Shown here in pieces: positions 23,817 through 53,427 of a stretch of DNA of 60,052 nt. This DNA is from an uncultured bacterium (GTDB lineage: Bacteria; Bacillota; Clostridia; Lachnospirales; Lachnospiraceae). Under the pieces are notes generated by a model. The model ran no database searches and was not told the DNA's origin. It saw nothing but the letters and a program-made list of their open reading frames with translations. Each line of letters begins with the position of its first letter. Positions within the stretch are counted from its first letter, which is position 1. Where the stretch lies: contig CANDBT010000029.1 in assembly GCA_947383005.1 (NCBI GenBank), positions 1 to 60,052 on the forward strand, in the 5' to 3' direction. A program made the translations under genes and the position numbers.

Positions 23817-24548
23817 ATGGTTAAATTTTCGATGTTAAGCAATATGGGTTCCAGAGATAATAATGAAGACAATATCGGGATGTACCAGGACGGAGAGGAT
23901 TACTGTTTTATCCTGGCCGACGGTTTGGGAGGCCATGGCAAGGGAGAGGTGGCATCCCAACTGGCTGTAAATGCTGTGATTGAACAATTTACCCAGGGAG
24001 AACGGGGAGAAGATTTTCTTGATCAGGCTTTTGAAAATGCCCAGAACAGCATAGTTGCCCGGCAGGAGGAGGAACGGGCCTGCATGGATATGAAAACCAC
24101 ATTGGTGGTTTTGATGGTGGAAAACGCACAAATCCGATGGGGGCATATCGGTGATTCCCGTCTTTATTATTTTCAGAACGGAAAGCTGCGGGTGCGCACT
24201 TTAGATCACAGTGTTCCGCAGATGCTGGTGGCTGTAGGCGAGATAAAAGAAAAGGATATTCGCCATCATCCTGACAGGAACCGGTTGCTTCGGGTATTGG
24301 GTGTGGAGATGGATGAGATGAAGCATCAGACGTCCGAGCCCATTGGCCGTGAGAACAGACAGGCATTCCTTCTGTGCACGGACGGTTTTTGGGAGCTGAT
24401 CGAAGAGAAAAAGATGGAAGCGACTCTCAAAAAAGCTTCCACGCCGGAAGAATGGCTGCAGGAAATGGAAAAGATTGTGCAAAAGAACGGCAAGAATACA
24501 AATATGGATAATTATTCTGCCATCGCTGTATGGGCGGATAATCATTAA
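23817..24548 (+). CDS. PP2C-family Ser/Thr phosphatase, first
   Basis: Metal-dependent protein phosphatase of the PPM/PP2C (Stp/PrpC) type, about 243 residues, cytoplasmic. Motifs in order: GSRDNNEDN, CFILADGLGGHGKGEVAS, IRWGHIGDSRLYYF, LLCTDGFWELI and NMDNYSAIAVW, which supply the metal Asp residues. GTGGGGG at 23805-23811 selects ATG 23817 over GTG 23805. It is the first gene of the kinase/FHA/type VII locus and would oppose the kinases downstream. Confidence 0.9.
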   Translation: MVKFSMLSNMGSRDNNEDNIGMYQDGEDYCFILADGLGGHGKGEVASQLAVNAVIEQFTQGERGEDFLDQAFENAQNSIVARQEEERACMDMKTTLVVLMVENAQIRWGHIGDSRLYYFQNGKLRVRTLDHSVPQMLVAVGEIKEKDIRHHPDRNRLLRVLGVEMDEMKHQTSEPIGRENRQAFLLCTDGFWELIEEKKMEATLKKASTPEEWLQEMEKIVQKNGKNTNMDNYSAIAVWADNH

Positions 24549-24550
24549 AC

Positions 24551-24743
24551 GTAACAGTTTAGACGGCGGGCAATTTACTATCGATTAGGGCGTCAAGCTT
24601 GCTTGTAAGCCCTAATCGATAGTAAATTGCCCATCGGATGGACATCCGATGCTTCTTGCCCGGCGAAGACGGGCAAGAAGACGCCCGCGCGATATTTCTT
24701 ACCCAGCACAGGCGGGCAGGAAGATGCCTGTCCGGACGGTTAC
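24551..24743 (+). repeat. GTTCA-family repeat, large full copy with 24-bp hairpin
   Basis: Outer arms GTAACAGTTTAGACGG (24551-24566) and GTCCGGACGGTTAC (ending 24743). Inside are a perfect 24-bp hairpin (24568-24591 with 24609-24632), whose apical region contains GCGTCAAGCTTGCTTGTA; a CATCGGATG/CATCCGATG hairpin (24632-24651); and CTTCTTGCCCG/CGGGCAAGAAG (24652-24680). The copy at 55473-55623 has the same order and the same apical sequence but an unrelated stem. Confidence 0.75.
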
Positions 24744-24814
24744 GGCAGTCAAGATAACCACAGCGCTATTCAGGTGGTTGCGAGCAGAGAGAAAAGGATA
24801 TACAGGAGGAGAGT

Positions 24815-25432
24815 ATGGCTATTGTCAAATGCAACAACGGACATTTTTATGATTCAGATAAGTATTCCCAATGTCCTCATTGCGGGATTATTGATATGGA
24901 TGATGATGAGCGGACTATGGCAGTAAGGGATATGCCTTTCTCGGATTCCGACGATGACAAGACCGTATTTTTGGAACAGATGGCTCCCCGGGTAGTGAAG
25001 GATTACGGCAATTCACCGATGGGTGTGAATGGCAGCTACATGTCGGACCCGGATATCGGAGACAAGACTATCGGCTCTTATGAGATGGAAAAGGGCGCCC
25101 GCTTCATGGTGGGATGGCTGGTATGTATAACCGGGCCGGAGCGTGGCCGGGATTATCGTTTGTATCAAGGATTCAATCGCATCGGCCGGGATTACGGGAT
25201 GGATATTGCAGTGATGGAAGATCAGAGCCTGAGCCGGGAAGCCGCTTGCGCTGTGGTATATGATGACAGAAGCAATAAATTTTATGCCGTTCAGCAGCAA
25301 TCGTCCACCGCTTATTTGAATGGAGAGCTGTTGGCCGGGGCAGTCGAGCTTTCCAGCGGGGATATCATTAAAGCCGGTCAGAGTGAATTTGAATTTATCG
25401 CATTTTGCAGAGAGGGAAGGATATGGGAATGA
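24815..25432 (+). CDS. Zinc-ribbon FHA-domain protein
   Basis: 205 residues, cytoplasmic. The N-terminal zinc-binding knuckle KCNNGHFYDSDKYSQCPHCG (residues 5-24) is shared with the protein at 35070. An acidic linker contains two Thr in D/E-rich settings, Thr34 (DDERTMAV) and Thr50 (DDDKTVFL). The FHA domain covers about residues 105-200 (FNRIGRDYGMDI..QSLSREAACAVV). FHA domains bind phosphothreonine. The acidic Thr sites ahead of the FHA recall the GarA/OdhI phospho-switch. GGAGGAGAG precedes ATG 24815. Predicted adaptor substrate of the local kinases. Confidence 0.82.
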   Translation: MAIVKCNNGHFYDSDKYSQCPHCGIIDMDDDERTMAVRDMPFSDSDDDKTVFLEQMAPRVVKDYGNSPMGVNGSYMSDPDIGDKTIGSYEMEKGARFMVGWLVCITGPERGRDYRLYQGFNRIGRDYGMDIAVMEDQSLSREAACAVVYDDRSNKFYAVQQQSSTAYLNGELLAGAVELSSGDIIKAGQSEFEFIAFCREGRIWE

Positions 25433-27312
25433 AGATAAAACGTTTTTTAGCCGGTATGTTGATTTGCCTGGGAATATTTGCCGGCTGCATGGTAAGCGCG
25501 GCGGACGAAAATCCTTCTCTGGAGCAGGTTTTTGTGAATATGCCGGAAGTGATGGCCTATGGGCAGGGTATATCCGGGAATGTGACGGAAGCCAATTTGG
25601 GAAAAGAAAAACTGAATTACCTGGGAACCACTCCTTTTTCCCAGACAGGACAGCCCATTTATTATTATGTGCTGTTGGACGTATCCAATTCCATGCCTGC
25701 CACTTATTTTAACTCCATAAAGCAGGCGATTGTCAATTTTGAGTCGACACTGAATCCGAACGACCGCATGGCGTTTTATACTTTCGGCGAGCAGGTCGAG
25801 CTGAAACTTCCTGAGGAACACAGCCCTGCCGACACCCAGCAGGTGATGGAGACAATCACCAATACCGACAACCGGACGCTGCTGTTTGAGGCTATCAGCA
25901 TGGCGGCTGATCGGGCAGAGCAGATACAGCCGGAAGTTTGCAGGAGGAAAATCCTGATCGTGATTTCCGACGGGGAGGATTTTACCATCGGTGGGACCGG
26001 CGCCGCGGAGGCTCAGGAGAATTTAAAACGCAAAGGGATTCCGGCTTATGCTTATGCCATTAAAGATACGGCTCGGGTGAATATCAATAATTTCGGGGAG
26101 TTTGCCAGAACTTCAGGCGGCCAGTTGACGATATTTGACGCTCAGGAGGCGGCAAATGTACTGGATGGCTTGTCAGCACAACTGGGGGCTTTCGAGGTGC
26201 TGGAATTTGAAGCCGAGGACAATTTTGCCACCAACAGTATGGAAACTTTTTCTATAAAGACAGGAGCCAACCAAACGATCACTAAGGATGTCCTGGTATC
26301 CCGCCATATCCCGGATGAAATCGCGCCTACTCTTTTGCGGGCAGACAAAATCGCGGATGACCAGGTGGAGATTGAGTTTTCCGAGCCGGTAAAAGGGGCG
26401 GATGTAGCCGCTTCCTATACCGTAACAAGGAAAGAAGAAGAGAAAAAGAAAAAAGATAAGAAGAAGGATAAGAAAAAAGATAAAGACTCCGATGAGGACG
26501 GGGAAACAGAAGAGGAGACTGAGGAAGAAACCGAGGAGGAAACGGAAGAAGAGACGGAAGAGGAAACTGAGGAAGAGACAGAAGAGGACGGCGAAGACGA
26601 GGAAAAGAATGATAAGAATATAGCCGCCGTAGCCGGTGTCAGCGTGAACATGGAGAATCCGAATGTGGTGGTGCTTACCTTTACCAATGAATTGAAGCCG
26701 GGAGAATATACGATATCCTGCACCAATATTTACGATATATCCATGGAAAGCAATGCGGTTTCCAATACGGTAACTTTTGAAGTGGAACAGTATCCTTTGA
26801 GCAAGCGGATACTGATGCTGGTGCAACAGTGGTATTGGGTATTGCTGGTTCTTCTCGCGCTGCTGGTTATTTTGGTGATTTTCCTGGTGTACCGGAAAGT
26901 GAAAAAGGGCAGAGGAGTCATTTACGTGGACGGCAAGCCGGTGATGGCTGCCCAGGTAGAGATCCACAAGCATGTGGCGATTCAAAAAGCCCAGGAACAG
27001 AGCTATGACCCAAGCGGGAAGACGTTCCAGTTGAGAGTCAGCGTAAAGGGCGGAAAGCCTCAGGATATGAATTTACGGCTGTCCAAGAGCTTTATCGTGG
27101 GGCGGAACAAGATATGTAACTTGTATTTTGACGACAACCGCATGTCACGCCAGCATTTTGCCCTGGAATGGGACGGTATGAATATGTTTATCAGTGATTT
27201 GAATACGACCAATGGCACGAAAGTGAATAATGTGAAGATTAATACGAAACGGATGCTGCAGCAGGGGGATAAGATTTCTGCCGGTTCCGTAGAAATGACG
27301 ATCAGGTGGTGA
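25429..27312 (+). CDS. Extracellular VWA-domain protein with cytoplasmic FHA domain
   Basis: 627 residues. A signal sequence (with a possible FAGC lipobox) leads to a VWA domain (78-250) whose MIDAS reads LLDVSNSM (DxSxS). An Ig-like region is interrupted by a Lys/Asp then Glu/Thr tract (about 334-398). One TM helix (466-491) and a cytoplasmic FHA domain (547-627, FIVGRNKICNLYFDDNRMSRQ) follow. So the protein could link an external adhesive domain to internal phospho-signalling. GGGAAGG suits ATG 25429, which overlaps the previous stop. The acidic repeats are also a DNA-level repeat at about 26505-26590. Confidence 0.83.
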   Translation: MKIKRFLAGMLICLGIFAGCMVSAADENPSLEQVFVNMPEVMAYGQGISGNVTEANLGKEKLNYLGTTPFSQTGQPIYYYVLLDVSNSMPATYFNSIKQAIVNFESTLNPNDRMAFYTFGEQVELKLPEEHSPADTQQVMETITNTDNRTLLFEAISMAADRAEQIQPEVCRRKILIVISDGEDFTIGGTGAAEAQENLKRKGIPAYAYAIKDTARVNINNFGEFARTSGGQLTIFDAQEAANVLDGLSAQLGAFEVLEFEAEDNFATNSMETFSIKTGANQTITKDVLVSRHIPDEIAPTLLRADKIADDQVEIEFSEPVKGADVAASYTVTRKEEEKKKKDKKKDKKKDKDSDEDGETEEETEEETEEETEEETEEETEEETEEDGEDEEKNDKNIAAVAGVSVNMENPNVVVLTFTNELKPGEYTISCTNIYDISMESNAVSNTVTFEVEQYPLSKRILMLVQQWYWVLLVLLALLVILVIFLVYRKVKKGRGVIYVDGKPVMAAQVEIHKHVAIQKAQEQSYDPSGKTFQLRVSVKGGKPQDMNLRLSKSFIVGRNKICNLYFDDNRMSRQHFALEWDGMNMFISDLNTTNGTKVNNVKINTKRMLQQGDKISAGSVEMTIRW

Positions 27313-27317
27313 TGGAG

Positions 27318-28667
27318 ATGATAACAGAAGCAGCAGGAATGTGTCCAAATTGCTTCGCTTTTCATTACGTAGACGGACGATGTCCGGACTGCGGATATTC
27401 GGGTATGGCCGACAGCGCCAACGCTCAGACACTTCCGCCAGGGACTTTGCTGGGCAATCGGTATATGGTAGGCAGAATATTGGGAATTGGCGGTTTTGGT
27501 ATTACCTACAAGGCTTTTGATACGTTGTATCAGCGGATTTGCGCCATAAAAGAGTTTGCGCCTTCCGGCCTGGCTTACCGCAAATGGGGCGGGCTTACCA
27601 TGGAAATCCACAACAATTCCAATGCGGCTTCCTATTATCAGCACGGTATGCAGCGCTTTATTGAAGAAGCTCAGAAGCTGAAAACTCTGGAGAATGTGCC
27701 GGCAGTAGTACAGGTGTGGGAGTGCTTCCAGGAGAACAATACGGCCTATTTCGCTATGGAGTTTTTGGACGGGACGGATCTTAAGCATGTGATTAAGGCG
27801 ATGGGAGCTACCGTCAACAGTAAAGACATTACCAACATTATTGTAAAAATTGGCAGTGCTATGGATATTATCCATCGGACGACCAATATTCTTCATCGGG
27901 ATATCAGCCCGGACAATATTTATATTCTGAAAAACGGCGGAGTGAAGCTGCTTGATTTCGGGAGCGCCAGACAGAAGACCATGGATGAGCGGCAGGAATT
28001 TACGGTGGAATTTAAGAAAGGGTTTGCCCCTTTTGAACAGTATTCCCGCAACGGCAAGCAGGGACATTATACGGATGTTTACGCATTGGCGAGTACATAT
28101 TATTATTCCCTTACGGGAGTGATGATCCCTGATGCCATGTCACGGCTGGATGGCCGCACCTACACGCCGCTCTACCAGATGAGGCCGGATATTACTCAGG
28201 AGGTGTCGGCGGCCGTCGACCGGGCTTTGGAGGTGGATTACCGTAAGCGTACACAGAGTATGGCGGAGTTCATCCAGGGCATCAGTCAGGGAAAAGAGCC
28301 GGAACCGGTTGATTCCCATAATTATCAGCAGGAAAAGAAAGTAACTCCTTACTTGGAGGTGCTTACAGGCAGCGCGGCGGGGGTCCGCTGGAACCTTCCC
28401 AAAGATATGCTGGTCGTGATCGGACGTTCTGCCAAGCAGAGCAATATCGTTATCGGAGGGAACCGCAATATCAGCAAAGGCCATTGCAATCTGCTTTATG
28501 ACGGCAAAAGCGGAGAGTTTTTGCTGACGGATTTATCCTCTACCAACGGAGTTTATGTGGATAACCAACGGCTAGAACCCCAGAAGACTTATCGGTACAA
28601 GACGGAAGTCCAGTTTTCTCTGGCGAACAATCAATGTATCATTAAGGCGGGGGTATCGTATGAATAA
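27318..28667 (+). CDS. Ser/Thr protein kinase with zinc ribbon and C-terminal FHA domain
   Basis: About 449 residues, cytoplasmic. A zinc ribbon (CPNCFAFHYVDGRCPDCGY) precedes the kinase domain (43-327), which has LGIGGFGITYKAFD, the Lys in CAIKEFAP, the catalytic loop ILHRDISPDN and the DFG of LLDFGSAR; it should be active. The FHA domain (363-440) has VIGRSAKQSNIVI and LSSTNGVYVDN. No membrane segment. A kinase with its own FHA can dock on phosphorylated partners. Start is ATG 27318 or 27312, overlapping the VWA stop region. Confidence 0.87.
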   Translation: MITEAAGMCPNCFAFHYVDGRCPDCGYSGMADSANAQTLPPGTLLGNRYMVGRILGIGGFGITYKAFDTLYQRICAIKEFAPSGLAYRKWGGLTMEIHNNSNAASYYQHGMQRFIEEAQKLKTLENVPAVVQVWECFQENNTAYFAMEFLDGTDLKHVIKAMGATVNSKDITNIIVKIGSAMDIIHRTTNILHRDISPDNIYILKNGGVKLLDFGSARQKTMDERQEFTVEFKKGFAPFEQYSRNGKQGHYTDVYALASTYYYSLTGVMIPDAMSRLDGRTYTPLYQMRPDITQEVSAAVDRALEVDYRKRTQSMAEFIQGISQGKEPEPVDSHNYQQEKKVTPYLEVLTGSAAGVRWNLPKDMLVVIGRSAKQSNIVIGGNRNISKGHCNLLYDGKSGEFLLTDLSSTNGVYVDNQRLEPQKTYRYKTEVQFSLANNQCIIKAGVSYE

Positions 28668-29475
28668 TAATATCGAGCAGAGGAAGACCCGAGTAAAGAA
28701 CGGCCAGATACGGGCTTCCGCATACAGTATTATCGGCAGCCGGGAATACCAGCAGGATTATGCGGGGCTGATTTTGGAAACGGATCGCCTTCTGGCTGTT
28801 GTATGTGACGGTATGGGAGGGCTGAACGGCGGCGAGGTGGCCAGCCGGGAAGCGGTAAGGCTGCTGCTGGCCGATTATGACGAAAATCCGCCCCAGGATC
28901 ATTTTACCGATTTCCTTTGTCGGGAAGCAGTCCGTATGGATCAGTTGGTTTTTGATCTGAAGGATGAAAACGGGCAGCTTCTCAAGGCGGGAAGCACAGT
29001 TGTTTCCGTGATTATCCAGGAGGGGAACCTCCATTGGATGTCTGTGGGAGACAGCCGTATCTATGTATTGAGGGACGGCACCATGGTCCAGGCAACCAAA
29101 GACCATAATTACCGCAGGGAGCTGGATGAAGCCCTGGCGCGCGGAGAAATATCGAGAGAATATTATACCAAGGAAGCAGCAACCAAACGGGCCGAAGCCC
29201 TGACAAACTTTTTGGGCATGGGCGGAATCCGTCGGTTTGAGCGCAATAGCCAGCCTCTTGCTTTGGAAGATGGAGATTGTATTCTCCTGTGCAGCGACGG
29301 TTTGTATAAGAGGCTTGACGAACATCAGATCCGGGCGCTTTTGGTAGATAATCTGGTCAATACCCGGGTTGCCGCCAAACGGCTGGTGGAAATGGCCATG
29401 GCCCTTGCGGCCAGGGGGCAGGACAATACGACGGTAATTGTTATCCGATATCACACGTTACAGGAGGAAGCTTGA
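28660..29475 (+). CDS. PP2C-family Ser/Thr phosphatase, second
   Basis: 271 residues, overlapping the kinase gene by eight bases, which suggests coupled translation of a kinase-phosphatase pair. Motifs: IIGSREYQQDYAG, LAVVCDGMGGLNGGEVAS, LHWMSVGDSRIYVL, ILLCSDGLYKRL and GQDNTTVIVIRY. All metal Asp positions appear present. It is divergent from the first PP2C at 23817, so the locus has two distinct phosphatases. Confidence 0.9.
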   Translation: MNNNIEQRKTRVKNGQIRASAYSIIGSREYQQDYAGLILETDRLLAVVCDGMGGLNGGEVASREAVRLLLADYDENPPQDHFTDFLCREAVRMDQLVFDLKDENGQLLKAGSTVVSVIIQEGNLHWMSVGDSRIYVLRDGTMVQATKDHNYRRELDEALARGEISREYYTKEAATKRAEALTNFLGMGGIRRFERNSQPLALEDGDCILLCSDGLYKRLDEHQIRALLVDNLVNTRVAAKRLVEMAMALAARGQDNTTVIVIRYHTLQEEA

Positions 29476-29476
29476 G

Positions 29477-31597
29477 ATGGCCCGTTGCTTTAAGTGTATG
29501 AAAGAATATCCTGACGGATATGAGATTTGCCCTTATTGCGGGTATAACCAGGTGGGGGATGCCCAGAATCAGTATTATCTCCCGCAGGGGACTATGCTTG
29601 CCAATGGGCGCTATCAGATCGGGGTAGTGGTAAATACCGGAGGGTTCGGTATCGTTTATCGGGCCTGGGATACGGTTTTTGACAAGATGATTGCGGTTAA
29701 GGAATACTATCCCGGCGGAAAAGTTACCAGGATTCCCGGCACTTGCCAGGTGGTCGTCTATTCGGAAAAAGATGCTGAAAACTACGCGCACGGAAAGGAA
29801 GATTTCCTGGTAGAAGCACGGACGGTGGCCCGTTTTGATACCAAGCCGAATGTGGTTGATGTATATGACTATTTTGAAGCCAATAACACGGCATATATGG
29901 TTATGGAATTTATGGGCGGGATTCCTTACAGCCAGTATATCCGGCAGCACGGAGGAAAGCTGGATGTAAAGACTGCCATGGCAGTTACTTTCGGTGTATT
30001 GGAGGCGTTAAAGGAAGTTCACAAGGCAAGGGTTATCCATTGCGATATTAAGCCCAACAATATTTTTGTTGATGACAGCGGCGGCACAATTAAAGTAAAG
30101 TTGTTCGACTTTGGCGCGGCTTATCTGGCAGGATTCGAGCGGAAGAACGATACGCTTACCCCTTGTTACGCACCGCCGGAGCTGTACAATACAAAGGGAA
30201 AGAGAGGCCCCTATACCGATATCTATTCGGTGGGCGCCATGATGTATTATGCATTGACCGGCGTGAAGCCGGATGAGGCTACCGATCGTATGCAGGAGGA
30301 TCATCTCCGTCCGCTGCATGAAGCGAACCCGCAGGTGGCGAAAGGCATCAGCAATGCGGTGATGCGGGCGATGGCGCTAAAGGAAGATATACGTTTCCAG
30401 ACGGCGGACCAGTTTGCCGAAGCCCTGACTAAGGGCAATGCCTTGGATGTGGAGGCAGAGATACGAAGACGGAAAAGACGACGGATTCTCCAGGTGGCGG
30501 CAACCTTTACCGTGCTTGTCGGCGCCGGTGCCATATGTGCATTCAGCATGATGCGGCAGCGTGACGAGAACACGCTGAGGCCAACCAGCCTGGAGGTCTG
30601 GGTGATGGCTGATGAAAACGATATTTCCGCCGGAGGCAGCTCCGACGCCGTGACGGCGGATCAGCGATTTGCCAATATGACCGAAAATTTTCAGGAGCAA
30701 TATAAAATCGACTGTAATGTAACGGTATTTCCCTATGACGAATATGGGGATAAGCTGAATGAGGCGGCCGAAAAGGGGGAACTTCCCGATGTGTTTGACA
30801 GTACTTATTTAGCTTCCCAATATATGGATCGTCTGGAACCTTTGGAGGAAACCCGCAGGCTTATGGAGGAGAATGACACGGCAGACTGGTTGTTTATGGA
30901 TGCTTACGATAACGAGTTTCCCGAGAAAAAGCAGATGCCTTTATGTTTCCAGATGCCTTTGGTTTATATCCGGCAGGCAGCCGCTGCTGGAGGGGAGGGC
31001 GCCCAGGAAAATGAATTTTCCGGCCCTCTGCACACGATTGAGGAGCTGAAAGATTCCGACAATAATTACTCTTATTCGGTAAGGGCAGAGGATTATCTGC
31101 TGTATGATCACTTGCTGGGGGACGGCTGTGTGGAACAGTATAGCCAACTGGCTCAGGATAACGGCTGGAAAATGGGGGATGCCCTCGAGTTGTTTACGGA
31201 TGGGCAGGTACAGTATTATCTTTCGGATACAGGGGATTATCAGTTGATGTATGAGAAGCTGCCTGGCCAGTTCCAAGTGGCGCCTATGGGTTTTGACCAA
31301 TACCAGGTGCGTTTTGACCATCTCTGGAGCGTCAGCAAGTCTTCCGGCAAATCAAAGAAGAAAGCGGCTCAGTGGCTGATTCATTATATGTTGACAGACA
31401 GAGCGCAGAATGCTTTGGGAGTAAAGAGCCTGGAAGGATTGCCGCTAAGCGCTGTAATCAGGGATACGGTGTTTTTTGATGTTTATAACGGAGATTTGCT
31501 TCAAATCCAAAGTCATATCCCTAATGTAGCTCCTGCAGGAGGGAGCCAGTGGATAGAAGAAGCTCAAGAATATAGGAAAAAGTGGGAAGACAGATGA
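29477..31597 (+). CDS. Transmembrane Ser/Thr kinase with extracytoplasmic solute-binding-protein domain
   Basis: 706 residues. A zinc ribbon (CFKCMKEYPDGYEICPYCG) precedes the kinase domain (about 45-320): NTGGFGIVYRAWD, IAVKEYYPGG, catalytic loop VIHCDIKPNN (non-RD, Cys189 in place of Arg) and LFDFGAAY. After a basic stretch, a TM helix (334-355) leads to about 350 external residues that read like a family 1 ABC solute-binding protein. The pieces are LEVWVMADEN, GELPDVFDSTYL, LFTDGQVQYYLSDTGDYQL, LWSVSKSSGKSKKKAAQWL and a closing helix. AGGAGG at 29462-29467 selects ATG 29477. It probably senses a sugar, oligosaccharide or peptide. Confidence 0.85.
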   Translation: MARCFKCMKEYPDGYEICPYCGYNQVGDAQNQYYLPQGTMLANGRYQIGVVVNTGGFGIVYRAWDTVFDKMIAVKEYYPGGKVTRIPGTCQVVVYSEKDAENYAHGKEDFLVEARTVARFDTKPNVVDVYDYFEANNTAYMVMEFMGGIPYSQYIRQHGGKLDVKTAMAVTFGVLEALKEVHKARVIHCDIKPNNIFVDDSGGTIKVKLFDFGAAYLAGFERKNDTLTPCYAPPELYNTKGKRGPYTDIYSVGAMMYYALTGVKPDEATDRMQEDHLRPLHEANPQVAKGISNAVMRAMALKEDIRFQTADQFAEALTKGNALDVEAEIRRRKRRRILQVAATFTVLVGAGAICAFSMMRQRDENTLRPTSLEVWVMADENDISAGGSSDAVTADQRFANMTENFQEQYKIDCNVTVFPYDEYGDKLNEAAEKGELPDVFDSTYLASQYMDRLEPLEETRRLMEENDTADWLFMDAYDNEFPEKKQMPLCFQMPLVYIRQAAAAGGEGAQENEFSGPLHTIEELKDSDNNYSYSVRAEDYLLYDHLLGDGCVEQYSQLAQDNGWKMGDALELFTDGQVQYYLSDTGDYQLMYEKLPGQFQVAPMGFDQYQVRFDHLWSVSKSSGKSKKKAAQWLIHYMLTDRAQNALGVKSLEGLPLSAVIRDTVFFDVYNGDLLQIQSHIPNVAPAGGSQWIEEAQEYRKKWEDR

Positions 31598-33927: not shown

Positions 33928-34039
33928 TGGCTGCCGGATAGGGGGGCGGTTTGCATAGATGTGCGTCCCGGCTGTCCGTGCGCAGTTTCCCGCCGTCAAG
34001 GCGGCAGGGAGCAGAAAACAGGAAAGGAGGCAATGGCCG

Positions 34040-38772: not shown

Positions 38773-38821
38773 TTTTGTTGGCAGGTTCGGCGGGAAGATA
38801 ATCCGGAGGAAGGAGAAAAAG

Positions 38822-39502: not shown

Positions 39503-39651
39503 GAGCTGTTTGGGATTTTGGGTTGACGGCTGCAGGCGGCGCCCGCCTGGCAGCAGCAAAAGACCTTTTGGCACTTCTGGCATAATTATGGTTATATAAT
39601 TAAAATGCAATATAAATCATGAAAGATAATCAGGAAAGCGAGGAAGAAAAA

Positions 39652-46775: not shown

Positions 46776-47486
46776 ATGGTTTCCATGTTGGTATATGATC
46801 CTCATGCAGAGGAACTTGAACTGATGAAAACATTGATTCGTCGGACTGCAGCAGCGTTGACGGAGGAAAAGTGGCAGATGGAATTTTTTGCCAGACGGGA
46901 ACAGGTGGCGGCTTATTTAAAAGACAGACCGCTTGTGGATATGGCTTGTTATGATGTGTCCCCCAAAGGGAGCATAGACGATTTGGAGCGAATACGAGGG
47001 TATTATCAGAATATGCTGCTTTTGCTGATTGCCGATCCCTCCATGTCTCCGATGGATTATATCCGGCCGACTATATTGGCTTCCGCTTTGCTGATCCGCC
47101 CTATTTCTCCTGAGCGCGCGCAAGATCAGATTACGGAGCTGGTAGAGCGGTTTCAGGCCCGGTTTTCCGATAATCAGGAGGAGAGCCTGGTTATTGAAAC
47201 CCGGGAAGGAAAAACTTATGTGCCATTGGCTCAGATCTATTATTTTGAAGCAAGAGAGAAAAAGGTCTATGTCCGTTTGAAAAAGCGGGAGCTGACATTC
47301 TATGAGACTTTGGAACATCTGTCGGAACGCCTTCCGGAACAGTTCGTACGCTGCCACCGTAGTTTTATTGTCAGTAAACAGCGGGTGCGGAAGGTAATGT
47401 TATCAAAAAACCTGATTGAGCTGGAACAGGGGATGCAGATTCCCCTTTCCCGCAGCTATAAATCGGCGTTTAAGGAGCTGGGATGA
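46776..47486 (+). CDS. LytTR-type response regulator with degenerate receiver
   Basis: 236 residues. The N-terminal half resembles a receiver (VSMLVYDPHAEE, DMACYDVSPKG) but the conserved Lys is Arg (LLIRPIS) and the Thr/Ser strand reads LLLLIADPS, so phosphorylation is doubtful. The C-terminal LytTR DNA-binding domain (about 140-236) is clear: YVPLAQIYYFEAREKKVYV, CHRSFIVSKQRVRK, IPLSRSYK. No histidine kinase partner is nearby. Its place directly after essC suggests local transcriptional control. The ribosome site is weak; ATG 46785 is a possible alternative start. Confidence 0.8.
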   Translation: MVSMLVYDPHAEELELMKTLIRRTAAALTEEKWQMEFFARREQVAAYLKDRPLVDMACYDVSPKGSIDDLERIRGYYQNMLLLLIADPSMSPMDYIRPTILASALLIRPISPERAQDQITELVERFQARFSDNQEESLVIETREGKTYVPLAQIYYFEAREKKVYVRLKKRELTFYETLEHLSERLPEQFVRCHRSFIVSKQRVRKVMLSKNLIELEQGMQIPLSRSYKSAFKELG

Positions 47487-48193
47487 TCGATATTTTTGAT
47501 TTACTGGAATTTCAGGTTTTGGCGGCGGCCCGTGGGATGGAAGATTATTATGGCTTTTTTGCCGACCAGGAGGCGGCCAAGGAAGATATATATTATACCA
47601 TATATCAGATGGCCAGATCTGGGATTTTGAAGCAGGAGGGAGAAGATCTGGTGATTCAGCCGCCGGTTTCCGGCTTGATGGATGTGATTGCCGCCTCTCC
47701 CTATGTGCTGGTTATTGACCGGGGGCAATATATGCTGCCTCGCCAGTGTATTTATTGCCACGGGGGAATTTATGTGTGTCTGGAAAACTGCAATACGGAT
47801 ATTTCCAAAATTAGCATCTGTGGCTTGGAGCAGGAGGAATTCAATCTTCAGCTTCGGGATTTGGACCAAATGCCGCAGCCTTATCTGACTGAGGATATGG
47901 GCGATTATGATTTTGAAGGATACTGGGAAGGCCATATGCCGGAAGAGCTGAAAAAGCTGCTTTCATCCGGTCTGGAAGCGGAGACAGAGGAATATTTGGA
48001 ATTTCCGCAGGTACACAGCGTGTTTGCCCTGCGGGAGAAAGAACAGGGTAAGCTTTTAAAGAGGATGTTCCTTTTGGATCCCGGCCTGGAGTTTTGTTTG
48101 GTTCTGCAGGAAGGAGATTCTCTGACTATGGAAAGGTATTCGCGGGAAAGGGCAGAGTCGGTTTTAGAAGCATGGTGGAGGGATGAAGGATGA
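47483..48193 (+). CDS. Uncharacterised type VII locus protein
   Basis: 236 residues, soluble, acidic, no family I can name. The N-terminal 75 residues look helical (FDLLEFQVLAAARGMEDYYG) and may form a winged-helix-like fold. A mixed alpha/beta part follows (VLVIDRGQYMLPRQCIYCHG). It overlaps the LytTR gene by four bases and yukD by four bases, so it is translationally coupled to both. Size, helical start and position next to the WXG100 genes are reminiscent of EspG-type substrate chaperones, but I see no diagnostic motif. Confidence 0.6.
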   Translation: MIDIFDLLEFQVLAAARGMEDYYGFFADQEAAKEDIYYTIYQMARSGILKQEGEDLVIQPPVSGLMDVIAASPYVLVIDRGQYMLPRQCIYCHGGIYVCLENCNTDISKISICGLEQEEFNLQLRDLDQMPQPYLTEDMGDYDFEGYWEGHMPEELKKLLSSGLEAETEEYLEFPQVHSVFALREKEQGKLLKRMFLLDPGLEFCLVLQEGDSLTMERYSRERAESVLEAWWRDEG

Positions 48194-48438
48194 TACTAGT
48201 AGATATCTATGTGCCGGGCGCCAATCAGACATATGATTTCAGCCTGGATGAGAACACGAAAATTGAGCTTCTTTTGGAGGAGATCAGTGGTATGATCTGC
48301 CAGAAAGAGCAGTCTACTCTGAATGGAAGCGTTAAAGAGCTGCTTCTGGTCAGCCAGAACCGGAAGCTGATCCTGAATTCCGGACTTACCTTATCCCATT
48401 ACAATATTACTCAGGGGGACCGGCTGATGCTGGTATAG
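48190..48438 (+). CDS. yukD: YukD/EsaB-like ubiquitin-fold protein
   Basis: 82 residues. A beta-grasp pattern like YukD/EsaB: ILVDIYVPGANQTYDFSLDE, KIELLLEEISGMI, and the C-terminal SHYNITQGDRLMLV. These small proteins are standard partners of EssC in firmicute type VII systems. It starts inside the previous gene (ATGA overlap). The 138 bases after it hold no gene; a short open frame there has no ribosome site. Confidence 0.8.
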   Translation: MILVDIYVPGANQTYDFSLDENTKIELLLEEISGMICQKEQSTLNGSVKELLLVSQNRKLILNSGLTLSHYNITQGDRLMLV

Positions 48439-48576
48439 CCCCATGGGAAACAGAAAATATGTCATTGGGAAGAACAGGCAGGTCATTGGTCATTCCAAAC
48501 GGGTCATTCATCAGAAATTGCCCCCAAACAGGGAATTTTGTAGTAAACTTCAATCATCAGAAGAAAGGAGAAGATA

Positions 48577-48936
48577 ATGTTTACGGTAGCGATACGAGCA
48601 TTGGCAGATTCCTCGCAGGAACTGCAGCAAATGGTCCGAAAATTGAATCAGCAGATTCAGGAAGTGGAAGGCATTGTCTCTTCGATCCGACGGTTATCCG
48701 CTTATGATGATGTAATCCACACGTTGCGGGCACAAGTGCAGAAAATGAATAATGAAAAACGCCGGCTGATGGAGATGATGGCCGCTTTGAACCAGATACA
48801 GAAAATGTATCTGCAGACGGAACGCAGGATTACGGAGTATGGTGATCAGATCCGCAAGGATAATTATTACCGGGGGATGGATGTAGTAAACCTGGATGGT
48901 ATACGGAATAATATCCAAGGATACCGGATCAGATAG
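48577..48936 (+). CDS. Small coiled-coil type VII locus protein without WXG
   Basis: 119 residues, nearly all helical with heptad character (LQQMVRKLNQQIQEVEGIV, LRAQVQKMNNEKRRLMEMM). No Trp-x-Gly turn and no Yxxx[DE] tail. The size and position, just before five WXG100 genes, suggest a secreted or chaperone-like helical partner. AGAAAGGAGAAG precedes ATG 48577. Confidence 0.7.
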   Translation: MFTVAIRALADSSQELQQMVRKLNQQIQEVEGIVSSIRRLSAYDDVIHTLRAQVQKMNNEKRRLMEMMAALNQIQKMYLQTERRITEYGDQIRKDNYYRGMDVVNLDGIRNNIQGYRIR

Positions 48937-48948
48937 GAGGGGAAGGCG

Positions 48949-49251
48949 ATGGCAGATATCATCGAAGTTAATATCAGGACTTTGGGAAATGACATTAAGG
49001 ATATGCAGATGGAAGTCAGCAGGCTCCGCAAGGAGATGGCCAGTGCTTTCAATTCCATTACCGAATTAAATGCCATGTGGAAAGGGCAGGCGAATGATGC
49101 TTTCCGTCAGTCTTTTCAGGCCGACCGGGAAGCAATGGAAGAAATGTGTAAGATTATTGACAGTCTGATTGGTTATATGGAAAATGCCAGAAGCGAGTAC
49201 CGCAGGTGTGAAGCGGCCGTATCGGCAGAAATTGATACAATACGGATATAG
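48949..49251 (+). CDS. WXG100 protein 1
   Basis: 100 residues, two helices around a central Trp-Lys-Gly turn (AMWKGQANDAF). Near the C-terminus YRRCE fits the Yxxx[DE] type VII export signal. Likely substrate or structural secreted factor of the EssC system. AGGAGGGGAAGG precedes ATG 48949; 12 bases after the previous gene. Confidence 0.88.
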   Translation: MADIIEVNIRTLGNDIKDMQMEVSRLRKEMASAFNSITELNAMWKGQANDAFRQSFQADREAMEEMCKIIDSLIGYMENARSEYRRCEAAVSAEIDTIRI

Positions 49252-49340
49252 GAAGCAGCCGTTAGGCAGGATTCTTATGGCCAGATGCGTAACGGTTCAA
49301 GGGCTGTCTGAACTGTTATTATAGAAAGGTGGTGTAAGGA
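49252..49340. repeat. GTTCA-family palindrome among the WXG100 genes
   Basis: GTAACGGTTCA (49289-49299) pairs with TGAACTGTTAT (49309-49319). It is the only recognisable feature of this gap and closely matches the minimal copy at 7714-7743. Confidence 0.55.
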
Positions 49341-49667
49341 ATGGCAATCAGCGGATCGGTAGAATTGCTGGTAACTCCGGAGGTGCTTAACCGGAAAGCC
49401 TCAGAAGTTGAGCGAAATGTAGCCAATATGCGTCAGCGTTTTGCGGCTATGAAAGTTCTGGTACAGAAGAGCAAAAGCTATTGGGTAGGAGAAGCGGGTA
49501 ACATGCATCGTCAAAACTACAATGAGCAGCAGGAAAATATTGAACAGGTACTCAGGCGGTTGGGAGAGCATCCGGGAGATCTGAGGCAAATTGCCCAGAC
49601 CTATACAGCCACAGAGCTGAAAATAGAAGAGGTTACTGTCCGCTCTCTTCCCGGAAATGTGATATAA
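49341..49667 (+). CDS. WXG100 protein 2
   Basis: 108 residues with the turn Trp-Val-Gly (SYWVGEAGNMHR) and a C-terminal YTATE that fits Yxxx[DE]. It most resembles protein 5 (50571) in its N-terminal LLVTPEVL and C-terminal GNVI, so those two may be a paralogous pair. The stop codon lies in ATATAACTTATCGGAA, which equals the first 16 bases of the three-hairpin element at 57. Confidence 0.87.
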   Translation: MAISGSVELLVTPEVLNRKASEVERNVANMRQRFAAMKVLVQKSKSYWVGEAGNMHRQNYNEQQENIEQVLRRLGEHPGDLRQIAQTYTATELKIEEVTVRSLPGNVI

Positions 49668-49722
49668 CTTATCGGAATCATATGAACTTTTGGTTAGTCG
49701 AGGGAGAGGGGAGTAAAAAGTA

Positions 49723-50034
49723 ATGGCAAGAAGCTTACACCGCATACAGATGGATTTCAGTTTAGCTAAAAAACAGGCCAGAGAATTGGATGAAGTTGCG
49801 GCCAGGATGGATAGGCTTGCGGGAACCCAGATGGAAAACACCATGAATCGGCTGGGGAGGAGCTGGACGGGAGACAATTCGCTGAAATATATCAAAAAAG
49901 GGAAACAGCTACAGGGCAATATTGATTCCACGGCTGATTCTTTACGGGAAGTGGCAGCGGCCATCCGGGAAATCGCCAAAAGGATTTATGACGCGGAAAT
50001 GGAAGCGTGGGAAATCGCCAATAACCGAAAATAA
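49723..50034 (+). CDS. WXG100 protein 3
   Basis: 103 residues with Trp-Thr-Gly (RSWTGDNSLKY). The C-terminal YDAEMEAWE does not strictly match Yxxx[DE], unlike the other four, so it may be exported only as a heterodimer with a partner carrying the signal. GGGAGAGGGGAG precedes ATG 49723. Confidence 0.82.
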   Translation: MARSLHRIQMDFSLAKKQARELDEVAARMDRLAGTQMENTMNRLGRSWTGDNSLKYIKKGKQLQGNIDSTADSLREVAAAIREIAKRIYDAEMEAWEIANNRK

Positions 50035-50084
50035 GATAGCACTTAAAAATTAATTATATACAATTATCCAAGGAGGAAATTATT

Positions 50085-50387
50085 ATGTCAAGATTCAGAG
50101 TAACTGCACGTGAGGTAAGGAATGCTGCACAGAATTTGAGAAGCCAGAACAGGAGTTTTAACAGTCAGGTGATGAGCTTGGAGAATTCCGAGCGCCGGCT
50201 TCATGGGATGTGGGAAGGCCAAGCCCATGATGCATTCCACAATGCGTTTATGCACGACAAGAACTATATGCAGAAGTTCTATCAGTTGATTGAGCAGTAC
50301 TGCCGGGCGCTGGATGAGATTGCCAGACAGTATGAAGATGCTGAGAGAAGGAACGTGCAGACAGCTACCCAGAGAAAAGTTCGTTAG
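50085..50387 (+). CDS. WXG100 protein 4
   Basis: 100 residues with Trp-Glu-Gly (GMWEGQAHDAFHNAF) and the tail signal YEDAE. It is most like protein 1 in the region after the turn. AAGGAGGAAATTATT precedes ATG 50085. The 183 bases that follow hold no gene. Confidence 0.88.
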   Translation: MSRFRVTAREVRNAAQNLRSQNRSFNSQVMSLENSERRLHGMWEGQAHDAFHNAFMHDKNYMQKFYQLIEQYCRALDEIARQYEDAERRNVQTATQRKVR

Positions 50388-50570
50388 TCAGCCGGATTAA
50401 GTCAGGTATTTGACGGCATAGAAGTAGTTGTCGCCGGGAATCCGGTGCAGGAATGGAAATTGGGACAAGACATCAGGGAGACAACTTAGGGGACAGCATG
50501 GGACGGCCGGATGGAATGATGGGAAAATATAAATTCGATAAATTCGTTTAATAGAAAAGGAGAAAATATC

Positions 50571-50888
50571 ATGGCAATGCAGGGAACATTATTAGTAACT
50601 CCGGAACAACTGAGAAGTACAGCAAACGCATTTCAGAGCAATATGACCAGTGTGCAGAGAGCAACCAACCAGATGCTTGATTTGGTAAGCCGGAGCAGCA
50701 GATATTGGGAAGGCGAGGCTTCCAGCTCTTACAGGAATAAGTTTAACCAGCTCCGCGACGATATTGATAAAATCCATAGAATGATCCGTGAGCATGTAGA
50801 TGATTTGAATGAGATGGCCAGAGTATACCAGGCAGCAGAAGATGCCAACAAGGCTACCAGCAGCCGTCTGTCTGGCGATGTAATCTAA
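50571..50888 (+). CDS. WXG100 protein 5
   Basis: 105 residues with Trp-Glu-Gly (RYWEGEASSSYRNKF) and the tail signal YQAAE. Begins GTLLVTPEQLRS and ends SGDVI, like protein 2. AAAAGGAGAAAATATC precedes ATG 50571. Last of the small export-substrate genes; the next 450 bases hold a repeat and a promoter. Confidence 0.88.
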   Translation: MAMQGTLLVTPEQLRSTANAFQSNMTSVQRATNQMLDLVSRSSRYWEGEASSSYRNKFNQLRDDIDKIHRMIREHVDDLNEMARVYQAAEDANKATSSRLSGDVI

Positions 50889-51013: not shown

Positions 51014-51084
51014 TTATACACAGGCCCGAATATGAAAGCTTTCGGCTGGTGCAGCATGCGGGCCGCGCGGCGAGTAGGGAAGAA
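51014..51084 (+). repeat. GGCCCG...CGGGCC intergenic repeat, copy 3
   Basis: ACACAGGCCCGA...GCATGCGGGCCGCGCGGCGAGTAGGG. It keeps the outer GGCCCG/CGGGCC pairing and the GCGCGGCGAGTAGGG tail of the copy at 6333, but the sequence between them is different. Confidence 0.55.
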
Positions 51085-51200
51085 AAGGAAGTATTTGTTT
51101 ATTAACGGGAAAAATATGTCCTTCCAAAAACATTGAGTTTGAGATTTTTTGCCTTTGGCGGGAAAGTGAAAAAGGACTATCAAATATAGAAGAATTTTAG

Positions 51201-51230
51201 TTGACTGAACTGCTTTAAAAGAGTTACAAT
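51201..51230 (+). promoter_or_regulatory. Promoter upstream of the TM2-domain gene
   Basis: TTGACT at 51201-51206, 18 bases, TACAAT at 51225-51230. This gives the TM2 and FHA genes their own transcription start after the WXG100 group. Confidence 0.65.
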
Positions 51231-51339
51231 AAGGTAGCTGTACAGATAACAGTATTGATGAAACGGTTGCCTATAAGAGAATAAGCACTTATAGAGGGAA
51301 TGGTTAGATACGAAAAGAGGCAGGAAGGGAGTACATATT

Positions 51340-51969
51340 ATGTATTATTGCAGAAATTGCGGATATCAGGTTCCCGATGGGATGATGGTATGCCAGAGAT
51401 GCGGAACTAGGAAAGGGACAGGGATAAATTTTTGTTCTACCTGCGGTTCGCGGATGTCGTCAGGTTCGGGATATTGCGTGGTTTGCGGCGCCAATATGAT
51501 GAGTGGTGGTTCCGGGGGGAATTATCCGGCTGCGCCGGGGAGTTACCCGCCGCCGGGAAATTATCCGCCACAGGGGAGTTACCCGCCGCCAGGGAATTAT
51601 CCGCCTCCTGGGAATTACCCGCCGCCTGTCCGGCCACCGATGAATTATAATAATAATAATGGTTATAACCAGTATTCGGGGCCGATACAGCAGCCAGGCC
51701 AGCCGAGGAAATCCAAATTGGTTGCGGGTCTTTTGGGGGTATTTTTTGGGCAGTTTGGGATACATGATTTCTATTTAGGCTATTATGGCATAGGCGCTAT
51801 GTTGCTTTCCCTTAGTTTACTTGGATATATCCTTTGCTGCTTTACGGGAATGCTGTCTTGTCTATTCAATCTTTTTGCTTTTGGTTGGGGGACAGCAGAG
51901 GGGATAATGATTTTATGCGGCGTGGGCAAATATAGGTTTGATGGTTTTGGCAATCCCCTGGATCCGTAA
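51340..51969 (+). CDS. Double zinc-ribbon TM2-domain membrane protein
   Basis: 209 residues. Two zinc ribbons (CRNCGYQVPDGMMVCQRCG; CSTCGSRMSSGSGYCVVCG) are followed by Pro/Gly/Tyr repeats of the PPPGNYPP kind (about 65-105). A TM2 domain follows (about 125-205; KSKLVAGLLGVFFGQFGIHD, FYLGYYGIGA) with two to three hydrophobic helices. Function unknown; the zinc ribbon links it in style to the local kinases. A shorter paralogue is at 57917-58354. Confidence 0.8.
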   Translation: MYYCRNCGYQVPDGMMVCQRCGTRKGTGINFCSTCGSRMSSGSGYCVVCGANMMSGGSGGNYPAAPGSYPPPGNYPPQGSYPPPGNYPPPGNYPPPVRPPMNYNNNNGYNQYSGPIQQPGQPRKSKLVAGLLGVFFGQFGIHDFYLGYYGIGAMLLSLSLLGYILCCFTGMLSCLFNLFAFGWGTAEGIMILCGVGKYRFDGFGNPLDP

Positions 51970-52089
51970 AAATGAAAGTTTTGTGAAGAAAGGACAATTC
52001 GGCAGGAGTTTGTGGTATGATGGTTATGGCACAATTGCGAGGATGTAACCTGCGATAAAAATATTCAGAAGGATAAGGAAGGTAGCTGT

Positions 52090-53427
52090 ATGTTTTGTAT
52101 AAATTGCGGAAAGCAATTGGATGAGGGATCGAAATTCTGCATTTATTGCGGGGCGACTCAAGAGGATGCTGACGGCGGTTCTGTTCCAGGCGTAGCGGGG
52201 GCAGCGGCTCCGGCGGCAAATATGAATGCGAATAGTTATGGGGCAGGAAGCCCGTCTGTCATGCAATCGGAGGAAAAGCCGACAAAAGCCGGGCTGATTC
52301 TGCTTATCTCTGCGATGGTATCTGGTTTCCTGGCTATAGGGACGATATTTTTCCCTTGGATTGCCGTAGAAAGTGCCGAGATTTGGGGAAATGTGATTTC
52401 GGCAGAATGCCGTTTGTGGGATTTGATAACTTTGATGTTGGAACTACAGTCTGCCAGCGGCGAAGACGGGATGATCCTGCTGGTGATCATTGTCTCTATT
52501 CCTCTTGTGCTGCTGGGGATTGGGGCTTTGCTCTGGCTGGCCGGAGGGATATTCTGGCTGATCACGAAGACAGCAAGAAAAGCATGGCTGTGGCTTGTCG
52601 GCTCGTCGTTATGTTTGTTTTTATCCGATGTAGTTTTTTTGATCATGGTTTTTGCCACAAGGGCATATATTGATTATGCCGTAGACCAGGCGGCAAAAGA
52701 AACTTTTGGTATTTCTTTTAAAAATTTTGTAAAAGCAAGCGATTTTTTGGAGCTGAAGCCTGCTTTTTGGCCATGGGTTATGCTGGTTCTGGCTGTAGCC
52801 ATGTTGATTTTACTCATTTGTGCGAAGAGAGGGCTGGGGAAAAAGATTCGGAACGCCGGTTATCATTCTTCGGTGCCGGTAGAGCCGATGCCATCAGGGG
52901 CAGGGGGGCCGGAATTCGGTGCGGCTGGCCCGGAGGCAGGATATCCGCATACACAGCCCGAGTATATGCCTACGGCATCGGCTATGCAGCAGCCTTTGGA
53001 ACCGATTAATCCTACGGATGCCACTTATCCTTCTTTTAATGATGACGATGATGAAACCAGGAGACTGGGAGAGAATGGGATAATGCCGCTTGGCGGCGAA
53101 GCTACAGCTCCTGCCGGTTTGGTTATTTTCCAGGACAAAAGGGATTCTTCCCAACTTTACGGCTGCAGCTTAGAAGGCACAGTAATTATAGGAAGGGATC
53201 CTGAAGGGTGCAATGTGATTATCAGCAGTGATAAATCGATATCCCGGAAGCACTGTCGGTTATTTAAAAGCAATAATGTGTGCTATGTGGAGGATTTGAA
53301 TTCCTTTAACCACACTTATGTAAATGATGTGATGATCAGTTCCCCCACACCACTGCAGCAGGGGGATATATTGAAGTTGGGCACGGTGGAGCTTATGGTG
53401 GTTGAGTGTGATATGAACAAAAACTGA
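52090..53427 (+). CDS. Zinc-ribbon, four-TM, FHA-domain membrane protein
   Basis: 445 residues. An N-terminal zinc ribbon (CINCGKQLDEGSKFCIYCG) is followed by four hydrophobic helices (about 70-95, 130-160, 165-190, 225-247). A cytoplasmic linker has an acidic Thr site (DDDDETRRLG, about 320-330). The C-terminal FHA domain (about 365-440: VIIGRDPEGCNVII, KSISRKHCRL, LNSFNHTYVND) ends the protein. The acidic Thr before an FHA again recalls a phospho-switch. GGAAGGTAGCTGT precedes ATG 52090. Probably the last FHA member of the locus. Confidence 0.83.
   Translation: MFCINCGKQLDEGSKFCIYCGATQEDADGGSVPGVAGAAAPAANMNANSYGAGSPSVMQSEEKPTKAGLILLISAMVSGFLAIGTIFFPWIAVESAEIWGNVISAECRLWDLITLMLELQSASGEDGMILLVIIVSIPLVLLGIGALLWLAGGIFWLITKTARKAWLWLVGSSLCLFLSDVVFLIMVFATRAYIDYAVDQAAKETFGISFKNFVKASDFLELKPAFWPWVMLVLAVAMLILLICAKRGLGKKIRNAGYHSSVPVEPMPSGAGGPEFGAAGPEAGYPHTQPEYMPTASAMQQPLEPINPTDATYPSFNDDDDETRRLGENGIMPLGGEATAPAGLVIFQDKRDSSQLYGCSLEGTVIIGRDPEGCNVIISSDKSISRKHCRLFKSNNVCYVEDLNSFNHTYVNDVMISSPTPLQQGDILKLGTVELMVVECDMNKN

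Follow-up and report, generated by a model that had tools for sequence, protein, structure and literature searches.

A type VII secretion core beside a Ser/Thr phosphorylation cassette in Lachnospiraceae, and how the two might be connected

To our knowledge, little is known about what turns on type VII secretion in Bacillota. A locus from an uncultured Lachnospiraceae bacterium (assembly GCA_947383005.1) raises the question of whether protein phosphorylation may be such a switch. The locus is found on contig CANDBT010000029.1, positions 1 to 60,052 of which were analyzed and are referred to as the window. According to open reading frame (ORF) calling and profile scans (Pfam, NCBIfam), 27 genes, all on the plus strand, fill positions 23814-53427. 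They code for a core of a type VII secretion system (T7SS), two PP2C phosphatases, three kinases whose catalytic motifs are complete and one pseudokinase; nine of the encoded proteins are FHA proteins. The original prediction, made from the sequence alone, had listed about 25 co-directional genes, including EssC, YukD, five WXG100 proteins, two PP2C phosphatases, three apparently active kinases, one pseudokinase and many FHA proteins, and this inventory stands. The gene set suggests that outside signals switch the exporter via plug-in phosphorylation modules. We tentatively favor, as a good possibility short of a probability, that a plug-in cassette for Ser/Thr phosphorylation gates export by a machine resembling the subtype T7SSi, with additional control by a LytTR regulator. 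Control of export by phosphorylation is what we infer from the gene content.

The sequences show which parts are present and which catalytic residues they have, that cassette and machine can be separated, and that the two repeatedly lie side by side. Kinases crowd at EssC loci beyond chance. Among 24 genomes with 145 kinase domains, a kinase is encoded at most 20 kb from EssC in 23 of 26 loci besides the window, with 1.9 expected (19 of 21 when five loci are omitted that are from genomes picked for a linked kinase). The three loci devoid of such a kinase are G101:C35, G134:C23 and G166:C52 (G, C and L are our labels for genomes, contigs and loci). The EssC position was estimated from LytTR for G253, G301, G337, G346, G357 and G373. 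Named genomes were also scanned with an EssC alignment, and the best 80 of 341 relatives were kept (the named loci). Where these extend at least 8 kb to both sides (n=49), a kinase is found in 36, PP2C in 24 and a VWA-FHA protein in 20. In a sample of 250 genomes from the family, EssC (1e-100) is found in 64, a window-type kinase (1e-30; up to four candidates scored per genome) in 53, both in 24 and neither in 157 (Fisher odds ratio 3.2, p 6e-4). Within 20 kb of EssC, a window-type kinase is encoded in 8 of the 23 other genomes owning both (G012, G013, G017, G095, G101, G109, G129 and G226; p 3.6e-5 at a generous chance rate of 6%); these were read by eye, and the count is a lower bound, the genomes being drafts. 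Kinase, PP2C and FHA genes thus co-occur with essC in relatives, as the original prediction had proposed. The features of the locus are as follows.

23814..24548, +: PP2C1, PP2C-type Ser/Thr phosphatase (PF13672, 5.6e-20; motifs DGLGG, TDG, DN)
24815..25432, +: FHA1, FHA protein with N-terminal Cys motif (PF00498, 23.2 bits, cut-off 20.7; Cys pairs by eye)
25417..27312, +: VWAFHA, proposed adaptor, with signal/transmembrane (TM) segment, VWA ectodomain, TM segment and cytosolic FHA domain (VWA 7.5e-13, FHA 1.6e-16; hydrophobic stretches at residues 7 and 464)
27312..28667, +: KinFHA, kinase with FHA domain and without TM segment, full catalytic motifs (Pkinase 1.3e-29, FHA 4.9e-14)
28660..29475, +: PP2C2, phosphatase (PF13672, 3.2e-15; motifs)
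29480..31597, +: KinSBP, kinase, TM segment and extracellular solute-binding-protein domain (Pkinase 4.1e-33, SBP_bac_8 1.1e-11; motifs)
31582..33927, +: FHAABC, two FHA domains, ABC ATPase and ABC2 membrane domain, an Rv1747-like architecture (ABC_tran 3.2e-29, ABC2_membrane 1.3e-20)
34037..35062, +: PsKin, pseudokinase without TM segment (Pkinase 5.9e-5; Lys, HRD Asp and DFG lost)
35070..35837, +: FHA2, FHA protein with N-terminal Cys motif (FHA 1.6e-8)
35839..38052, +: KinPASTA, kinase, TM segment and PASTA repeats (Pkinase 1.8e-32, PASTA 1.5e-40; motifs)
38104..40473, +: CBP1-3, three secreted choline-binding-repeat proteins (PF19127 in both that were scanned; CBP2 by eye)
40562..41167, +: tmFHA1, TM segment and canonical FHA domain (7.7e-19; R, S, H, N and G all present)
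41186..41776, +: tmFHA2, TM segment and degenerate FHA domain (17.8 bits, below the cut-off of 20.7; S, H and N lost)
41790..46763, +: EssC ATPase with N-terminal FHA domain (TIGR03928, 1096.9 bits, cut-off 778.4; FHA 2.8e-13; Walker A at residues 710, 1155 and 1444)
46776..47486, +: LytTR regulator with an atypical receiver-like N-terminus (PF04397, 5.6e-24)
47483..48193, +: EspG-fold chaperone-like protein (aligned as 37 sequences, the window's and 36 chosen relatives)
48190..48438, +: YukD/EsaB, ubiquitin-like (PF08817, 28.9 bits, cut-off 27, a narrow pass)
48459..48510, +: proposed operator for LytTR before CC119, in which CATT recurs every 21 bp (48460, 48481 and 48502); a direct repeat is also found in relatives
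48577..48936, +: CC119, small protein, perhaps a coiled coil, encoded after YukD and ahead of the first WXG100 protein (weak coiled-coil matches only)
48949..50888, +: five WXG100 proteins (at 48949, 49341, 49723, 50085 and 50571; PF06013)
51340..51969, +: zinc-ribbon and TM2 protein (PF13240, PF05154)
52090..53427, +: ZnFHA, zinc ribbon, four TM segments and FHA domain (FHA 5e-19)
53540..54601, +: Mbeg1-like lipase with a signal-like N-terminus, neighbor and candidate client (PF11187, 3.4e-18)

The VAIK-type Lys, H[RC]D, the catalytic-loop Asn and DFG are all present in KinFHA, KinSBP and KinPASTA, and both phosphatases have intact DGxGG, [ST]DG and DN motifs. KinPASTA scores 316.7 bits against the Stk1/PknB equivalog NF033483 (curated cut-off 450); it is a PASTA kinase by domain and not an equivalog. 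FHA domains are carried by FHA1, VWAFHA, KinFHA, FHAABC (two domains), FHA2, tmFHA1, tmFHA2 (sub-threshold), EssC and ZnFHA. The WXG100 protein at 49723 is sub-threshold (22.1 bits, cut-off 27.3) while the other four pass; WxG is present in all five. An ORF of CC119-like size occurs at the same position in 46 of the 80 named loci. The LytTR regulator, the EspG-fold protein, the three choline-binding-type proteins and the TM2 protein are additions to the original prediction, as is, beyond its range, the Mbeg1-like lipase.

Which type VII system is this? FHA-bearing EssC, YukD and WXG100 proteins are shared with T7SSb from Bacillus and Staphylococcus, but EssB and EsaA, which are parts of T7SSb, were not found. 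The genome of the window has a single EssC above cut-off, and at E 0.01 it has neither an EssB/YukC nor an EsaA match, with positive B. subtilis controls for both. For this reason, assignment as T7SSb was rejected. The core (FHA-bearing EssC, LytTR, EspG-fold protein, YukD and five WXG100 proteins) is close to T7SSi, which is reported from Vallitalea alone (Garrett, Higginson and Palmer 2024, PMC11217815). The parts of T7SSi listed there include EssC(FHA) with a poorly conserved phosphothreonine motif, a YukD-like B, an EspG-like G and a LytR-like N, and the window has a counterpart to each (the latter three being TsiB, TsiG and TsiN); the likeness is by gene set and published description. The WXG100 genes of T7SSi are variably placed, while the five in the window have a fixed place. 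The window is further set apart by its large kinase cassette and its VWA-FHA and TM-FHA proteins. The same source attributes to T7SSh a kinase-like M with one C-terminal TM segment and states that T7SSi largely shares the T7SSh parts. M lacks an ectodomain, while the kinases of the window have ectodomains or are devoid of a TM segment, a comparison made by description only.

T7SSe and T7SSj have a kinase (D), a PP2C phosphatase (F) and an FHA protein near EssC (PMC11217815), and so have several relatives of the window. An Ig-like giant in L044 and the TPR-bearing kinases in L130 and L042 recall TseI and TsjD, respectively. The window differs by having LytTR and the EspG-fold protein. DUF6382, a feature of TseJ in T7SSe, had no match in the Pfam-scanned window proteins or in the FHA proteins of L130 and L014, and a large Ig-like envelope protein like TseI is absent from the scanned window proteins. 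T7SSe in the strict sense was thus also rejected. In the named loci with at least 2.5 kb downstream (n=68), LytTR is encoded in 57, an EspG-like protein in 56, YukD in 67 and a WXG100 protein within 4 kb in 60. Judged by gene content, a T7SSi-like core is widespread in Lachnospiraceae, which is new compared to the report from Vallitalea only. Our search, which covered part of the literature, found no published account of such a system in this family.

Kinase-domain trees (domains of less than 180 residues and a kinase on contig C18 of the window genome were omitted) split into two families, A and B, with support of 100/99 for both sides in the second tree. In the first tree, family A holds 22 of 26 rows labelled as near EssC (the EssC-linked loci L082 and L085 carried the cassette label), while the four kinases of the window belong to family B. 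The second tree also includes 11 rows from other parts of the window genome, of which two with long branches are on the A side. The assumption that the window kinases are the usual companions of EssC was therefore rejected. Family A kinases have a TPR ectodomain in the two cases scanned. B-type kinases are encoded in the 10-kb flanks of EssC in 12 of the 80 named loci. The B cassette consists of PP2C1, FHA1, VWAFHA, KinFHA, PP2C2, KinSBP, the pseudokinase, FHA2, KinPASTA and CBP, with varying completeness. It lies beside other EssC types in G012, G017, G109 and G101:C39 and, in part, beside same-type EssC in G357 (L134), L158, L160 and L166. In G111, cassette and EssC are on different contigs, but the cassette reaches the contig end and the EssC contig ends close by. 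G111 is thus not a clean case of separation, and the two may be linked. The pseudokinase is a regular member of the cassette, as L068 and L070 also carry one, there with PASTA repeats.

The closest set consists of the window and of six named genomes, those with the most similar EssC (73-77%) among the ones that have long contigs. Cassette and T7SS are both present in all seven, being contiguous in three and on different contigs in four. G398 (L151, L260) and G400 (L153, L262) have nearly the order of the window (PP2C1...KinSBP-FHAABC-PsKin-FHA2-KinPASTA-CBP-tmFHA-EssC), with a single tmFHA gene in G398 and an extra FHA gene in G400; FHAABC is 71-72% and KinPASTA 61-63% identical to the window protein. 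In the four split genomes (G397, G399, G401 and G402), only VWAFHA (65-69%) and tmFHA2 precede EssC, and the EssC locus adjoins the CMPK-like or XRE gene that also neighbors it in the window. The remote cassette is PP2C1-FHA1-PP2C2-KinSBP-PsKin-FHA2-KinPASTA-CBP-ZnR-FHA (ZnR, zinc ribbon). The examined cassette and EssC stretches of these genomes showed no KinFHA, FHAABC or tmFHA1. The cassette is clearly apart from EssC in G397, where it occupies about 63-73 kb on a contig of 158 kb, and in G399 (about 17 kb from the contig end, with EssC more than 25 kb from its own). In G402, the cassette is 0.2 kb from the contig start, and about 12 kb follow EssC before its contig ends, so that the gap could be about 13 kb.

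In trees of EssC, KinPASTA, PP2C1 and KinSBP, the four split genomes form one group with identical inner pairs (support of 87/94 for PP2C1 only). We therefore read the parts as sharing common descent, while the trees differ in where they place the window, G398 and G400. The ZnR-FHA gene directly follows CBP in the split genomes, while CBP and ZnFHA flank the T7SS block in the window. The FHA part of ZnFHA is 51-56% identical to the cassette-end FHA of the split genomes, and its ZnR-TM part shares 27% identity with a protein encoded behind the T7SS of L152. ZnFHA is thus a possible fusion of the two, with a weak match in the TM half.

It is possible, if doubtful, that the cassette is a general cell-envelope signalling module with targets in the cell wall or in transport, and that it lies beside the T7SS only because both use the same genomic islands. 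This would fit the variably complete cassettes in G160, G194 and G040, which have no EssC match at 1e-100, the partial cassette paralogue on contig C1 of the window genome (L068), the four split genomes, in which CBP is directly followed by ZnR-FHA, and the choline-binding genes, which accompany the cassette in several genomes. It is less easily reconciled with the linkage in 8 of 23 genomes owning both, which extends across different EssC types, with the co-retention in 7 of 7 genomes of the closest clade, and with VWAFHA, which stays at the T7SS when the remaining cassette is elsewhere.

If phosphorylation gates export, which protein reads it? As in Rad53, FHA domains contact phosphothreonine via Arg, Ser and Asn, plus the His of SxxH. 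In the EssC FHA domain (78 sequences, the window's and 77 others; 3 of the 80 named loci were dropped as EssC was too short), the position of the phosphate-binding Arg is occupied by Arg in 6, Lys in 27 and Ser in 23, while S is kept in 71, H in 76, and N and G in all 78. Of the FHA proteins encoded immediately ahead of EssC, 13 of 46 are canonical. Due to these counts, a direct phosphothreonine contact between kinase and EssC seems unlikely. The phosphothreonine site of the VWA-FHA proteins is intact in 24 of 27, compared to 15 of 48 canonical ones among other FHA genes, and the VWA-TM-FHA gene remains with EssC in all four split genomes. Based on the residue counts, the VWA-TM-FHA protein rather than EssC is proposed as the adaptor. 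One FHA protein near EssC (L014, 3944-5581) has a trypsin-like domain where others carry VWA.

The membrane kinases might instead be structural parts, with kinase-TM-ectodomain proteins replacing EssB, the pseudokinase domain of which binds the EssC FHA domain without phosphorylation. The contact between pseudokinase and FHA domain in the T7SSb of B. subtilis was judged to be phosphorylation independent by Tassinari et al. (PMC9600267), which makes an EssB-like role a serious rival. The missing EssB/YukC and EsaA matches, as well as an EssC FHA domain that keeps S, H, N and G but seldom Arg, point in the same direction. We nevertheless consider it improbable: three kinases and two PP2C phosphatases have intact catalytic motifs, the kinases are on a separate contig in four close relatives, and they are absent near some EssC loci.

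The second predicted layer of control is transcriptional. Behind YukD and upstream of the WXG100 operon, relatives carry the direct repeat TTNGTC...TTNGTC with a spacing of 20 or 21 bp. It resembles the LytTR consensus of 9-bp repeats with a 12-bp spacer, and LytTR is inferred to bind there. The motif was derived from the first locus sets (8 of 13 testable loci at two mismatches) and then fixed. It was found in 6 of 8 new testable loci at one mismatch, with 0.065 for shuffles; 7 of the 15 validation loci were untestable, as YukD was not found. Over the named loci, 7 of 80 were dropped (no YukD or an end too short) and 59 + 14 were kept. Outside of the motif definition, the repeat occurs in 20 of 54 loci with LytTR at one mismatch and in 36 of 54 at two, compared to 0 of 14 loci without LytTR at both; this contrast is not fully independent, as contigs overlap the validation set and the LytTR-less loci may represent few lineages. 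The spacing is 21 bp in 18 loci and 20 bp in three, with any other spacing in at most 4.

Five distant WXG100 pairs on contigs C50, C22 and C2 of the window genome share an upstream element (a sixth match spans 22 bases only). Their WXG4 and WXG5 are 84-85% and 95% identical to those of the window, respectively. They are located at L004 8079-8860, L005 8326-9113 and 12961-13689, and L006 8372-9267 and 11057-11825, among unrelated genes, and no toxin-like gene was recognized in the adjoining ORFs that were read. A second exact copy of the repeat (window 20951-20978) precedes a cytidylate-kinase-like gene and not a WXG100 gene. L007 (8101-10324) may encode an effector together with immunity genes: a WXG3-like gene comes first, then the gene of a 390-aa protein whose N-terminus is of WXG type, and two small similar genes. 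Several scans were negative: the strict consensus GKYCATT-N14-GGTYATT has exact matches only at the two window sites that helped define it, and 28 matches at up to one mismatch compared to 29 for the reversed control; a motif-free 21-bp autocorrelation was too noisy, and a promoter and terminator scan stayed at chance level. Our search over part of the literature found no published LytTR operator of a T7SS. We give little chance to purely transcriptional control, with LytTR setting WXG100 levels and neighboring kinases without a role in secretion, as the kinase enrichment at EssC loci would be left unexplained, even though LytTR is the more frequent (57 of 68 loci compared to 36 of 49 for the kinase), the repeat is found only where a LytTR gene is present, and the five distant pairs share a promoter element.

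The mechanism which we tentatively favor would thus be the following. Envelope signals would reach the PASTA and solute-binding-protein ectodomains. KinPASTA, KinSBP and KinFHA would phosphorylate Thr residues of cassette proteins, and PP2C1 and PP2C2 would take the phosphate off. The VWA-TM-FHA protein would read phosphothreonine and signal this to the EssC complex, and WXG100 proteins, perhaps also the lipase, would be exported or held back accordingly. Independently, LytTR would activate the WXG100 operon and the five distant pairs from the 21-bp direct-repeat operator. In other lineages, family A kinases may fill the same socket.

A number of observations weigh against this mechanism. The window kinases (B) differ in family from most kinases near EssC (A), and variably complete B cassettes occur in three genomes devoid of EssC. 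The cassette is on a separate contig in four of the seven closest genomes; an eighth near relative, L202 (75% EssC, 5.2-kb contig), lies outside this set. The phosphate-binding Arg of EssC is rare and is missing in the window itself, and the FHA protein before EssC is mostly not canonical. A kinase is lacking in 13 of the 49 named loci with sufficient flanks, and VWA-FHA is present in only 20. FHA-ABC shows no significant association with EssC across the family sample. The repeat is absent, at two mismatches, from 18 of 54 loci with LytTR, including those of the close relatives L151 and L156. The position of the window varies among the four trees, as do the placements of G398 and G400. Finally, Garrett 2024 (PMC11217815) already describes T7SS loci that contain genes for kinases, PP2C and FHA proteins and may be regulated by phosphorylation. 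The general claim of the original prediction is thus not new. Its phosphorylation circuit gains from the comparative co-occurrence and loses from the separable B family, the split genomes and the largely lost Arg. On balance, the reading of a phospho-switched T7SS is plausible and has been strengthened by the comparison, while its direct form, from kinase to EssC FHA domain, is disfavored.

The original prediction had also drawn two parallels. With the PpkA/PppA/Fha pathway of type VI secretion, the window shares only the logic (membrane kinase, PP2C and FHA reader beside a secretion ATPase), and it has several kinases; this parallel is also named for T7SS in the discussion of PMC11217815. The FHA-FHA-ABC-ABC2 membrane architecture of FHAABC, encoded beside a kinase, is that of the PknF/Rv1747 pair, but FHAABC is part of a larger cassette. 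The original prediction had suggested a neighborhood search across Clostridia. Kinase, PP2C and FHA genes were confirmed near EssC, with nearly full order in G398 and G400, while FHA-ABC was rejected as a general T7SS part: only 6 of 15 FHA-ABC genomes own EssC (Fisher p 0.22), its best match is within 20 kb of EssC on one contig in 0 of 14 genomes besides the window (drafts), and above 400 bits it is found near EssC only in L151 and L153 among the 80 named loci. A PknF/Rv1747-like three-gene set away from EssC (FHA-FHA-ABC exporter, small FHA gene and kinase) occurs in L072, L073 and L074.

Some neighboring features were also noted. The Mbeg1-like lipase recurs near EssC at 58-59% in L153 and L261, and more weakly in L027, L033 and L045. 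An XRE-type regulator (502 aa, 21910-23418) is divergent from the cassette and has relatives near EssC in L008, L043, L152 and L156. A short dispersed repeat of about 40-160 bases, present in the window (about 53440-53495) and in L004-L007, L068 and L069, recurs across several contigs of this one genome and is also encountered near the WXG100 pairs. In Clostridium sp. chh4-2, the T7SS locus is present in two apparently identical copies on two scaffolds (L175, L177).

Judged by comparative gene content, the outstanding trait of this system is its modularity: a single exporter is combined with kinases of two families, which are docked or remote, and with a LytTR regulon. It is tempting to speculate that clostridial type VII systems offer a socket, in which the VWA-TM-FHA adaptor reads phosphothreonine from cassette A or B, docked or remote, so that different ligands drive one exporter, while LytTR commands a scattered WXG100 regulon via the 21-bp repeat; as a whole, we consider this rather unlikely. 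The operator and the VWA-TM-FHA adaptor are concrete and cheap targets, and close relatives with the same exporter and a docked or a remote cassette provide a natural comparison. The wide occurrence in Lachnospiraceae would move the T7SSi-like subtype from a one-genus curiosity to a common feature of gut-type bacteria and, if the proposed socket is real, different outside ligands could drive the same exporter through interchangeable cassettes.

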